A DNA stretch of 36,492 nt from Arthrobacter wenxiniae (GTDB lineage Bacteria > Actinomycetota > Actinomycetes > Actinomycetales > Micrococcaceae), in the NCBI RefSeq assembly GCF_013376105.1, contig NZ_JAAMFM010000039.1:1-36492 (forward strand), in the 5' to 3' direction. Made by a program: the position numbers and the translations under genes. The notes under the pieces were generated by a model. It worked only from the letters and a program-made list of their open reading frames with translations. It searched no databases and was not told the origin of the DNA. Below are positions 21,491-29,308 of this stretch, in pieces. Within the stretch, counting starts at the first letter, position 1, and every line of letters starts with the position of its first letter.

Positions 21491-21508
21491 TATACCCGGG
21501 AGGGTATA
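21491..21508. promoter_or_regulatory. CstR operator 1 (upstream of cstR copy 1)
   Basis: TATACCCGGGAGGGTATA lies 38 bases upstream of the CstR-like start on the minus strand. A minus-strand -10 box TAGAAT (21492-21487) overlaps its edge, so binding would block the repressor's own promoter. The -35 is poor. Confidence 0.7.
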
Positions 21509-21552
21509 GCTGCCAGCAGTGGCCTACCCGTGGCCGGCCGCGCACAGCCCGC

Positions 21553-21581
21553 TTGCAAGATACCCTAGGGGGTATTATTGT
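21553..21581 (+). promoter_or_regulatory. CstR operator 2 within the cstB-like promoter
   Basis: TTGCAA (21553-21558) and TATTGT (21576-21581) are separated by 17 bases. The spacer contains the palindrome ATACCCTAGGGGGTAT (21560-21575). The start of the persulfide dioxygenase gene is 66 bases downstream of the -10. Confidence 0.7.
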
Positions 21582-21646
21582 TGGAGCTAGAGGAACGGAG
21601 AATTCGCTCCCGGAAACTCCCCCACCGCCCCATAAAGGAGAGCCCC

Positions 21647-23056
21647 ATGCTTATCGAGCGCATTTACGATGAAGACCTTGCCCAGGCCAGCTATTTCATT
21701 GGCTGCCAGGCCAAGGGCGAGGCCCTCGTCGTTGACCCCCGCCGCGACATCGCCGTATACCAGTCCCTCGCGGCAGCAAATGGGATGAAGATCGTGGCCG
21801 TGACCGAGACCCACATCCACGCGGACTTCCTCTCCGGAACCCGTGAACTGGCCGCCGCGACCGGCGCCACCGCCTATGTCTCCGGCGAGGGCGGGGCGGA
21901 CTGGCAGTACGGCTTTGAGGCCGAACGCCTGGGCGACAACGATGAGATCGTCCTGGGCAACATCACGGTCAAGGCCGTCCACACCCCCGGGCACACCCCG
22001 GAGCACCTGTCCTTTCTGGTCACCGACGGCGCATTCGCCGAGACCCCCGGCTACCTGCTCTCCGGGGACTTTGTCTTCTCCGGTGATCTGGGCCGCCCGG
22101 ACCTGCTGGACGAGGCGGCCGGCGGGGTGGATACCCGCTTCGCCGGGGCCACGCAGCTCTTCGCCAGCCTGCGGGAGAAGTTCCTGACCCTGCCCGATCA
22201 CGTCCAGGTCCACCCCGGCCACGGCGCGGGCAGCGCCTGCGGCAAGGCCCTGGGCGCCATCCCCTCCACCACCGTCGGCTACGAACGGCTCTACGCCTGG
22301 TGGGGCCCGTACCTGGCCGCCAACGACGAACAGGGCTTCATCAACGAACTCCTCGACGGCCAGCCCGACGCCCACGCCTACTTCGCCCGGATGAAACGCG
22401 AAAACCGCGATGGCCCGGCCGTGATGGGAGCCCGCGTGCCCCTGGGGGAACTTGCCACCACCGAGGTCGTGGCCGGCCTCGCCGCGGACACCGTGACCTT
22501 CGTCGACACCCGCTCGAACGTCGAAGTCCACGAAGGCACCGTCACCGGCTCCCTGAACATCCCGGCCGGCAAGTCCACGGCCAGCTTCGGCGCCTGGGTG
22601 GTCAACCCGGAAACCGACAAAAACCCGCTCGTGCTGCTGGCTCCGAACCAGGGAGCCGCGCAGGAAATGTGGGACCACCTGGTCCGCGTCGGCATCGACA
22701 AGATCGCCGGTTACGTCACCAGCCTCGAAGGCCTGCCCGCAAGCACGCCGAGGCTGATCCAACCCGAAGAACTCGAAGGCTTCGACGCCGCCATGGTCCT
22801 GGACGTCCGCAACCGCACCGAACACGCCGCCGGCCACATCCCCGGCTCCCACCAGCTCAGCGGCGGACGGGTGATGTGGAACCTGGACCATCTCCCGGCC
22901 GAGGGCACCATCGTCTCCTATTGCCAGAGCGGGGTCCGGAACTCGGTGGCGGCCAGCGCCCTGCGCCGTGCCGGCTACGACGTCGTCGAACTCGACGGCA
23001 GCTACGCAGGCTGGGCCACCTGGCAGCAGTCGCCGGACTCCGTTTTCAGCAACTGA
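21647..23056 (+). CDS. cstB: CstB-like persulfide dioxygenase with two rhodanese domains
   Basis: The protein has 469 residues; ATG 21647 follows AAAGGAG. Residues about 1-240 are a metallo-beta-lactamase fold of the persulfide dioxygenase type: [43 protein letters not shown] and [11 protein letters not shown] supply His and Asp ligands for a non-heme iron. Residues about 265-360 form a rhodanese-like domain without a catalytic Cys (LLAPNQG at the loop). Residues about 370-465 form an active rhodanese with Cys426 in SYCQSGVRN. This order matches CstB, which oxidises persulfides and transfers sulfane sulfur to make thiosulfate. The promoter contains a CstR-type operator. Confidence 0.88.
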
Positions 23057-23089
23057 TCCAGGCACCACCTGAAGCAAATGACTGACTCA

Positions 23090-23127
23090 CGTTGGCGGCG
23101 GTCCGGGACACCGGGCCGCCGCCAACG
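23090..23127 (+). terminator. Hairpin between cstB-like and MFS genes
   Basis: CGTTGGCGGCGG (23090-23101) is perfectly complementary to CCGCCGCCAACG (23116-23127) with a 14-base loop. It lies between the dioxygenase stop and the MFS start and could reduce read-through into the transporter. There is no U-run. Confidence 0.5.
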
Positions 23128-23154
23128 CATGTCCCGGACGAGCGGAGTACACAG

Positions 23155-28445: not shown

Positions 28446-28528
28446 GGACTGAACCTTTCGGTAGGACGGGGCGGTCGTGCTGGATATGTGGGCTGGGCGC
28501 CGTTGCCCTGGCGGTGGCCGGAGCCAGC

Positions 28529-28858
28529 TTAGGTCAGTCGCAGGAAAAGTGTGCGGACTTCCGCAAGGGTGGGTTTCTGGACCACCAGTCCCGGCTGCAC
28601 GCCGACTGCCGTGGGGGCGTCCGCGGGCTCGGTGAGGCACTCGCGCATAGCCGCCGAGATCAGTTCGAATCCGGCCCTGTCCAGGGCGCCGCGGACCGCC
28701 GAGAGCTGGGTGACGACATTGCGGCAATCCGCCCCGGATTCGAAGGCGGCAATCAACGCGGTGAGCTGTCCCCGGGCGCGCTTGAGGCGGTTGATCGTGC
28801 GGCGGCTGCCGGCGTCCGGGAGGTGCGGAGGTGGCGGGAAGTCAAGCGTGGAGGACAT
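28529..28858 (-). CDS. CstR-like repressor (CsoR family), copy 2
   Basis: With ATG 28858 the protein has 109 residues; a GTG at 28864 overlapping the upstream stop is an alternative start. The fold is the same as copy 1 (INRLKRARGQLTALIAAFES, DCRNVVTQLSAVRGALDRAG, MRECL). Cys45 and Cys74 are the likely sensing pair. The copper-CsoR histidine position, four before the second Cys, is Ala70, again pointing to persulfide rather than copper. Unlike copy 1 it has a proline-rich N-terminal tail and a 35-residue C-terminal extension. It is encoded inside the rhodanese operon rather than next to its own promoter. Confidence 0.8.
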   Translation of the reverse strand: MSSTLDFPPPPHLPDAGSRRTINRLKRARGQLTALIAAFESGADCRNVVTQLSAVRGALDRAGFELISAAMRECLTEPADAPTAVGVQPGLVVQKPTLAEVRTLFLRLT

Positions 28859-28860
28859 GG

Positions 28861-29175
28861 TCACTTACCGCGCCCCGGATAGTCAACCGGGTACCCGTTG
28901 CGGTACCACTCCGTGATGCCGCCCATGACATTTACCGCGTCATAGCCCTCAGCCGTGAGATGCGCCGTGGCCCGGGAGCTGCGGCCGCCCGAGGCGCACA
29001 TCACATACACCGTCCGACCAGCCGGAACGTCACCGAGGGATTCCTGGAAACGCGAGAGCGGGATGTTCCTCGTTCCCGGGACGCAGGCCTCCGAGTACTC
29101 TTCCTCTTCCCTGACGTCGATGATGGAAACATCCGGCCCGAGTGCGGCCAGGTCGTCCACTGAAATGCTCTTCAT
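28861..29175 (-). CDS. Single-domain rhodanese, first gene of the sulfur operon
   Basis: The 104-residue protein starts at ATG 29175 with AAAGGG upstream. It has the rhodanese start SIIDVREEEEYSEACVPGTR, the active-site loop YVMCASGGRSSRA with catalytic Cys60, and VMGGITEWYRNGYPV at the end. It leads a probable operon continuing through the second CstR-like repressor, another rhodanese, the YgaP-like protein and the TauE exporter. The stop lies next to the start of the CstR-like gene. The promoter region contains CstR operator 4. Confidence 0.85.
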   Translation of the reverse strand: MKSISVDDLAALGPDVSIIDVREEEEYSEACVPGTRNIPLSRFQESLGDVPAGRTVYVMCASGGRSSRATAHLTAEGYDAVNVMGGITEWYRNGYPVDYPGRGK

Positions 29176-29226
29176 GCTGGTGCCCTTTCATGGTCTCCGG
29201 CAGCCCGGGCGGGTAGTTGCCCTTCC

Positions 29227-29256
29227 ATTATGATACCCCAGGGGGTATTAATGCAA
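29227..29256 (-). promoter_or_regulatory. CstR operator 4 within the rhodanese operon promoter
   Basis: On the minus strand TTGCAT (29256-29251) and CATAAT (29232-29227) form a promoter with an 18-base spacer. The spacer holds the palindrome ATACCCCAGGGGGTAT (29233-29248 on the plus strand). The promoter drives the minus-strand operon beginning at 29175. Confidence 0.7.
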
Positions 29257-29279
29257 AACGGAAAGGGCCTACCCTCTTG

Positions 29280-29308
29280 TTGTCAAGATACCCATGGGGG
29301 TATAAAAT
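29280..29308 (+). promoter_or_regulatory. CstR operator 5 within the thioredoxin promoter
   Basis: TTGTCA (29280-29285) and TAAAAT (29303-29308) are separated by exactly 17 bases, a near-consensus promoter. The palindrome ATACCCATGGGGGTAT (29288-29303) fills the spacer. The -10 ends six bases before ATG 29315, which predicts a leaderless transcript. Confidence 0.75.

Follow-up and report, generated by a model that had tools for sequence, protein, structure and literature searches.

Palindromes before sulfur genes of Arthrobacter wenxiniae: probable CstR-type operators that seem to differ from copper CsoR sites by one base pair of spacer

Introduction

In Streptomyces coelicolor, the CsoR-like repressor ScCsoR binds a 16-bp palindrome, ATACC-N6-GGTAT, and is released from it by polysulfide (PMC7533328). 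We describe five palindromes of the form ATACCC-N4-GGGTAT, and the genes that they precede, in a 36,492-nucleotide stretch of DNA from Arthrobacter wenxiniae (NZ_JAAMFM010000039.1; "the window"), which is one whole contig of a 4.33-Mb genome. The ScCsoR circuit is the nearest system that has been shown, and the core circuit is already known there (PMC7533328). Common to both are a two-Cys CsoR-like repressor (released by polysulfide in S. coelicolor), a 16-bp palindrome of like form, and genes for a persulfide dioxygenase, rhodanese and sulfite transporter (TauE); the S. coelicolor circuit includes sco0620 (PMC7533328). Unlike that circuit, A. wenxiniae has two linked repressors and one elsewhere, and sites also stand before a thioredoxin gene, an sqr remnant and a gene for a Cys-rich peptide.

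With the staphylococcal CstR/cst operon the window shares a CstR without the copper His, CstB, sqr and TauE. A staphylococcal plasmid likewise carries a 16-bp site with one mismatch between cstR and cstA; a weaker second 16-bp site was seen by eye, and cstB itself contains another match with one mismatch. In S. aureus, a single operon is the likely target of CstR (PMC5480029), whereas here several separate promoters carry sites. On a Priestia plasmid with an MBL gene and an FAD oxidoreductase gene matched by sqr, no site with a spacer of 2-6 was found at up to one mismatch.

Two further members of the family bear on the length of the site. Copper CsoR of S. lividans uses the same half-sites, but its sites have an N5 spacer, are thus 17 bp long and belong to copper genes (PMC3902906). 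Thermus TTHA1953 is a redox-sensitive CsoR-family repressor of sulfur oxidation genes; its operator, TAC-N2-TAC-N4-GTA-N2-GTA, differs from the window sites, and one base more or less between its half-sites weakened binding, with Kd changed about 10- or 15-fold (PMC10318464). The ScCsoR site has been likened to copper CsoR and RicR sites, and the accessible part of that report does not mention the difference in length (PMC7533328). Below, N3, N4 and N5 denote sites of 15, 16 and 17 bp with alike half-sites. We put the probability at roughly 0.8 that the five palindromes are CstR-type operators and that their specificity against copper CsoR is set largely by spacer length.

Results

Five exact palindromes, rare in the genome

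The original prediction had placed five ATACCC-N4-GGGTAT palindromes before a CstR-like repressor, a CstB-like dioxygenase, an sqr remnant with a divergent Cys-rich peptide, a rhodanese-TauE operon and a thioredoxin. We found all five to be exact (operators 1-5, Table 1), the first being extended by one paired base on each side to 21491-21508. Their neighbours were as described, and the second repressor gene lies in the operon. When up to three mismatches were allowed, the window gave 17 matches against a mean of 7.83 in shuffled sequence, and none of 100 shuffles reached 17. Only the five operators had fewer than two mismatches.

A scan of the whole genome, which the original prediction had proposed, added one further exact site. 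The 4.33 Mb held six exact N4 sites and two with one mismatch, both of the latter inside long open reading frames (ORFs), while the motif read backwards had no match. The sixth site (contig C14, position 71667) lies between a third CstR-type gene, which is followed by a DUF302 gene, and a second, divergently oriented copy of the peptide gene, whose product is 87% identical to the window peptide. All six exact sites are therefore in clusters with CstR-type genes.

The palindrome had been said to fill the -35/-10 spacer at operators 2, 4 and 5. This is reasonable because promoter boxes can be read by eye at each of them: those of operator 2 in Table 1, TTGCAT-18-CATAAT on the minus strand at operator 4, and TTGTCA-17-TAAAAT at operator 5. 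By the same reading, no clear -35 box was seen at operators 1 and 3; the final TAT of operator 3 is the start of a TATACT -10-like box. The -10-like box of the thioredoxin gene ends 6 nt before the ATG, so its mRNA may be leaderless.

In other genera, too, such sites stand before these genes, which agrees with the predicted regulon. Among scored homologues in the peptide loci (the best 80 of 593 matching stretches in named genome records), an exact N4 site lay no more than 150 bp upstream of 10 of 11 cstB genes, 6 of 22 CstR1-type genes and 7 of 17 thioredoxin genes, at 25-27 bp in five of these seven. MFS and DUF302 genes are assigned to the regulon by operon position only, no N4 site standing directly upstream of either in homologues (0/2 and 0/2). 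The regulon also appears wider than the S. aureus cst system, as had been proposed, since CstR there likely controls one operon (PMC5480029).

Repressors and sulfur enzymes of the CstR type

CstR1 and CstR2 matched PF02583 with 83.8 and 68.2 bits (curated cut-off 22.8), which places them in the CsoR/RcnR (DUF156) family. The CstR subtype is defined by two Cys at the CsoR ligand positions and no His between them. Both window proteins have this Cys pattern (C-x24-G-x3-C in CstR1, C-x24-A-x3-C in CstR2) and are linked to persulfide dioxygenase, rhodanese and sulfite exporter genes. A sequence check showed that the copper CsoR C-H-C ligand set is absent from both, the copper His being missing; annotated staphylococcal CstR has Asn at this position.

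The CstB-like protein was identical to annotated staphylococcal CstB at 175 of 436 aligned residues (40%) in a full-length alignment and shares with it the motif CQSGVR. It shows the CstB layout, an MBL-fold dioxygenase with two rhodanese-like domains, the last of which has the Cys; Pfam gave the MBL and one rhodanese domain, and the middle domain was recognised by full-length alignment to 3tp9, 3r2u and staphylococcal CstB. Together with the missing copper His, this favours the CstR-type identity originally assigned from the letters alone.

No intact ORF for the SQR flavoprotein was found in the window; sqr is present as two pieces in different frames, for which a sequencing error is possible. 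The sqr homologue of the staphylococcal plasmid is a single coding sequence of 1194 bp. In Pseudarthrobacter sp. H3Y2-7 (locus L053, 3343-3920) a degraded sqr diverges from the peptide gene at the same place as in the window. An intact sqr was sought in L053, but the gene there is itself degraded.

Spacer length divides sulfur sites from copper sites

The genome has four CsoR-family genes, and the fourth encodes the copper pattern C-x24-H-x3-C. It is preceded by an exact N5 site and by a second one that has a mismatch. The other exact N5 site of the genome stands before an ORF that by eye resembles a remnant of a CopB-type ATPase; a one-mismatch N5 site was also noted at C29:33002-33018. A one-base difference in length thus seems to separate sulfur sites from copper sites in the same cell.

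We considered whether the window palindromes could be copper CsoR operators and the island part of a copper response. The half-sites are common to copper CsoR sites, and on a related plasmid a multicopper oxidase gene lies beside the cluster. Against this, both window repressors are without the copper His, copper-type matches occur in none of 30 N4 loci of the class sample below, and 612 kb of peptide loci contain no exact N5 site. We rejected the copper reading, which we regard as very improbable, because the copper-type sites of this genome, including those of its own copper-type CsoR, have the 17-bp N5 form.

Among 148 sampled genomes of the class, 49 carried exact N4 sites (153 sites) and 76 exact N5 sites, with one match to the reversed control in each case. 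From part of these sites we took 30 N4 and 31 N5 loci, own genome included, and labelled them by tblastn matches (E<=1e-4). The N4 loci comprised 21 sulfur-type, no copper-type and nine with neither label, sulfur labels here including generic rhodanese, thioredoxin and MBL matches; under a stricter label (peptide, CstR or TauE) the count was 17/30 for N4 loci versus 0/31 for N5 loci. Twenty-seven N5 loci were copper-type, none sulfur-type and four neither, a count that is partly circular because the CopB-type and DUF4396 queries were taken from N5 loci; when these queries were left out, 15 were copper-type, none sulfur-type and 16 neither. CopB-type and DUF4396 proteins (Pfam: E1-E2 ATPase and DUF4396) would be presumed to serve copper.

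The regulators themselves were divided in the same manner. Without exception, CsoR-family ORFs found by pattern were of the Gly/Ser type in N4 loci (12 loci) and of the His type in N5 loci (10 loci). In a set of 64 distinct CsoR-family regulators, drawn from loci that had been picked by site or peptide, all 10 His types were nearest to N5, and of the 54 non-His regulators 46 were nearest to N4, none to N5 and eight had neither. One of these eight, from Agromyces, has N3 sites next to it. His-type regulators formed one clade with support of 100/100, in a short alignment. In the 80 peptide loci (612 kb) we counted 88 exact N4 and nine N3 sites, no site of any other spacing between 0 and 11, and no match to the reversed motif. 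A published statement of the N4/N5 length split was not found in the literature searched, the most likely sources lying outside that search.

Besides the make-up of the labels, the queries and the selection of loci given above, several observations weigh against a strict division by length and against a sulfur signal. NaHS did not reduce DNA binding by TTHA1953 (PMC10318464). The reversed N5 motif had one match in the A. wenxiniae genome at one mismatch. The unlabelled N4 loci amount to 9/30, although an SQR-like ORF was seen by eye beside the site in one and a peroxiredoxin-like ORF in another. One N3 site was found in Corynebacterium gallinarum. The sole N4 site of the six Agromyces genomes described below (L223, 2532-2547) is upstream of a CsoR-family ORF with the pattern C-H-H, neither copper nor CstR type, and is a possible exception. 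Finally, in 4 of the 80 peptide loci no site appears when one mismatch is allowed, and exact N4 is absent from 24 of the 54 class genomes that bear the peptide.

Agromyces sulfur genes have 15-bp sites

All nine N3 sites of the peptide loci were in six Agromyces loci, which were without any N4 site. We searched spacings in 20 genomes, across which the reversed motif had one match. Six Agromyces genomes gave 16 N3, one N4 and 20 N5 sites, and the 13 other genomes with listed sites (G157 left out) gave one N3, 44 N4, 35 N5 and three N6. A Tetrasphaera genome (G158, locus L108) has three exact N6 sites, two of which share one sequence and face opposite ways. Sulfur-type genes are present in all 12 regions in which the 16 Agromyces N3 sites lie; CsoR-family ORFs were found in six of these regions, each of the Ala type. 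Of the 20 N5 sites in Agromyces, seven were examined, and three were copper-type, none sulfur-type and four neither.

These data bear on whether length matters in itself. The palindromes might be CstR operators whose specificity comes from half-site or flanking contacts, length being a passenger of shared ancestry, a reading we think unlikely. It draws on the fact that copper-type and sulfur-type regulators form separate branches, and length and protein are for this reason confounded. Yet several Agromyces promoters have sites one base shorter with the half-sites kept, which is hard to explain if length is neutral, and one-base changes weakened binding by Thermus TTHA1953 (PMC10318464).

A conserved Cys-rich peptide in the regulon

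The 55-aa peptide had no match in Pfam or NCBIfam at E<=0.001 and none to a PDB sequence at E<=1; the family search covered these three collections, PHROGs and PADLOC lying outside its scope. Its structure model (mean pLDDT 74.9) has two short strands and a short helix, and Foldseek gave nothing usable (best E 8.1). A text search of the literature by the peptide motif gave nothing relevant by title. A zinc site may be formed by the conserved C7-x2-C10 and C18-x2-H21, in which case C2 and C35 would not be part of it.

The peptide is present in 54 of the 148 class genomes. Exact N4 sites were found in 30 of these versus 19 of the 94 others (Fisher p 2e-5, uncorrected for kinship). An exact N4 site lay within 150 bp upstream of the peptide gene in 45 of the 80 loci and a one-mismatch site in three more, an exact N5 site in none, and 37 of 51 distances were between 47 and 56 bp. 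Fourteen peptide loci lack exact N4: six are from Agromyces and have N3, four have one-mismatch N4 and four have none. In promoters aligned on the site, the sixth place of TATNNT, of which TAT is the palindrome end, was T in 38 of 45, so that operator and -10 box of the peptide gene appear to overlap.

The peptide might instead be an unrelated zinc-finger or housekeeping protein whose gene stands beside the operators by chance. Its CxxC...CxxH pattern is compatible with this, as are the peptide-bearing genomes without exact N4. We nevertheless hold it improbable, given the frequency and narrow spacing of upstream N4 sites, the presence of a site at both copies in the A. wenxiniae genome, and the several loci in which the peptide gene comes after a CstR, CstB or Trx gene in the same orientation.

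In 37 of 40 plasmid records shown, no listed gene covers the peptide; the gene table used is known to have gaps. A Rhodococcus plasmid has an island in which an exact N4 site lies 51 bp before the unlisted peptide gene and which also encodes TauE, an FAD oxidoreductase, a rhodanese and an MBL protein. The named genera of the peptide-bearing plasmids are Actinomycetota, and two plasmids have no genus name. One of the 80 loci is from a metagenome-assembled genome labelled Acidobacteria, which may be misbinned.

Other features of the window

Coordinates are collected in Table 1. Plasmid p232 of Arthrobacter sp. Rue61a (L189) carries window-like DUF302, CstR, TauE, rhodanese, thioredoxin, CstB-like and MFS genes, with only one exact N4 site and three more with one mismatch. 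An lgt gene follows this cluster too; in the window an Lgt-like ORF was noted by eye near the contig end (35448-36398). At 4114-6200 an ORF for a SulP-type anion transporter diverges from a MerR-type ORF (names by eye), and on Arthrobacter plasmid pA8H1 (L233) annotated SulP and MerR genes lie as a pair close to those for CstR, CstB and the peptide. Transposase-like ORFs in several frames, by eye apparently degraded insertion sequences, lie at 12827-14798.

Table 1. Putative operators and genes of the window
Feature	Position	Strand	Evidence or remark
Operator 1	21492..21507	none	ATACCCGGGAGGGTAT; exact match; before cstR1
Operator 2	21560..21575	none	ATACCCTAGGGGGTAT; exact match; within cstB promoter TTGCAA-17-TATTGT
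Operator 3	26297..26312	none	ATACCCCATGGGGTAT; exact match; between sqr remnant and Cys-rich peptide
Operator 4	29233..29248	none	ATACCCCAGGGGGTAT; exact match; promoter of rhodanese-cstR2-rhodanese-TauE gene run (minus strand)
Operator 5	29288..29303	none	ATACCCATGGGGGTAT; exact match; thioredoxin promoter
DUF302 protein, downstream of cstR1	20753..21163	-	Pfam PF03625
CstR1, CsoR-family repressor	21195..21452	-	Pfam PF02583; Cys-x28-Cys, Gly at copper-His position
CstB-like persulfide dioxygenase-rhodanese	21647..23056	+	Pfam MBL and rhodanese; PDB 3tp9, 3r2u
MFS transporter, downstream of cstB	23155..24459	+	Pfam MFS_1; presumed operon member
sqr remnant, C-terminal-like piece, other frame	25140..25451	-	by eye resembles degraded L053 sqr tail
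sqr remnant, N-terminal piece	25571..26182	-	NCBIfam SQR_III, far below cut-off
55-aa Cys-rich protein	26352..26519	+	invariant C2 C7 C10 W15 G17 C18 G19 H21 C35 in 13 aligned homologues
TauE/SafE sulfite exporter	26617..27381	-	Pfam TauE
Rhodanese with YgaP-like membrane segment	27378..27983	-	Pfam
Rhodanese	28143..28445	-	Pfam
CstR2, second CsoR-family repressor	28529..28858	-	Pfam PF02583; Ala at copper-His position
Rhodanese, first gene after operator 4	28861..29175	-	Pfam
Thioredoxin	29315..29686	+	Pfam
OsmC-like protein, after thioredoxin	29751..30254	+	Pfam

Discussion

From the sites, their rarity in the genome, their neighbours, their segregation by length and their conservation, we infer that CstR-type repressors bind the five palindromes, that the signal in A. 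wenxiniae is sulfur, and that length itself, not other contacts, largely gives the specificity. Genes for the clearance of reactive sulfur are very probably under the control of the five sites. In the mechanism that we propose, a reduced CstR-type repressor would lie across the promoter, where the palindrome overlaps either the -35/-10 spacer or the first bases of the -10 box, and would block transcription. Persulfides or polysulfides would modify its two cysteines and cause it to leave the DNA, upon which the persulfide dioxygenase, rhodaneses, sulfite exporter, thioredoxin and small Cys-rich protein would be made. Specificity against copper CsoR with the same half-sites would come largely from spacer length, N4 for sulfur and N5 for copper, with N3 for sulfur in Agromyces.

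The locus thus appears to combine a known core, the CstR circuit, with three unexpected extensions: the length rule, its change in Agromyces and a Cys-rich member that is conserved yet unannotated. Three findings go beyond the original prediction: the sixth site, the separation of N4 sites from the N5 sites of copper genes, and peptide conservation. A wider proposal, to which we give even odds, is that one operator base insulates copper (17 bp) from sulfur (16 bp) in Actinomycetia, that the Agromyces regulon has moved whole to 15 bp, and that the 55-aa Cys-rich protein, widespread and for the most part unannotated, handles sulfane sulfur. On this proposal, the repressor and many sites in Agromyces would have changed length together.

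Cells often hold several repressors of the same family that need separate sites, and here the separation is apparently achieved by one base pair of spacer. Agromyces offers a natural experiment in which length differs over a set of promoters, and the co-evolution of operator and repressor is therefore directly testable. For the small Cys-rich protein, the association with these sites would provide a first functional lead, namely reactive-sulfur handling.

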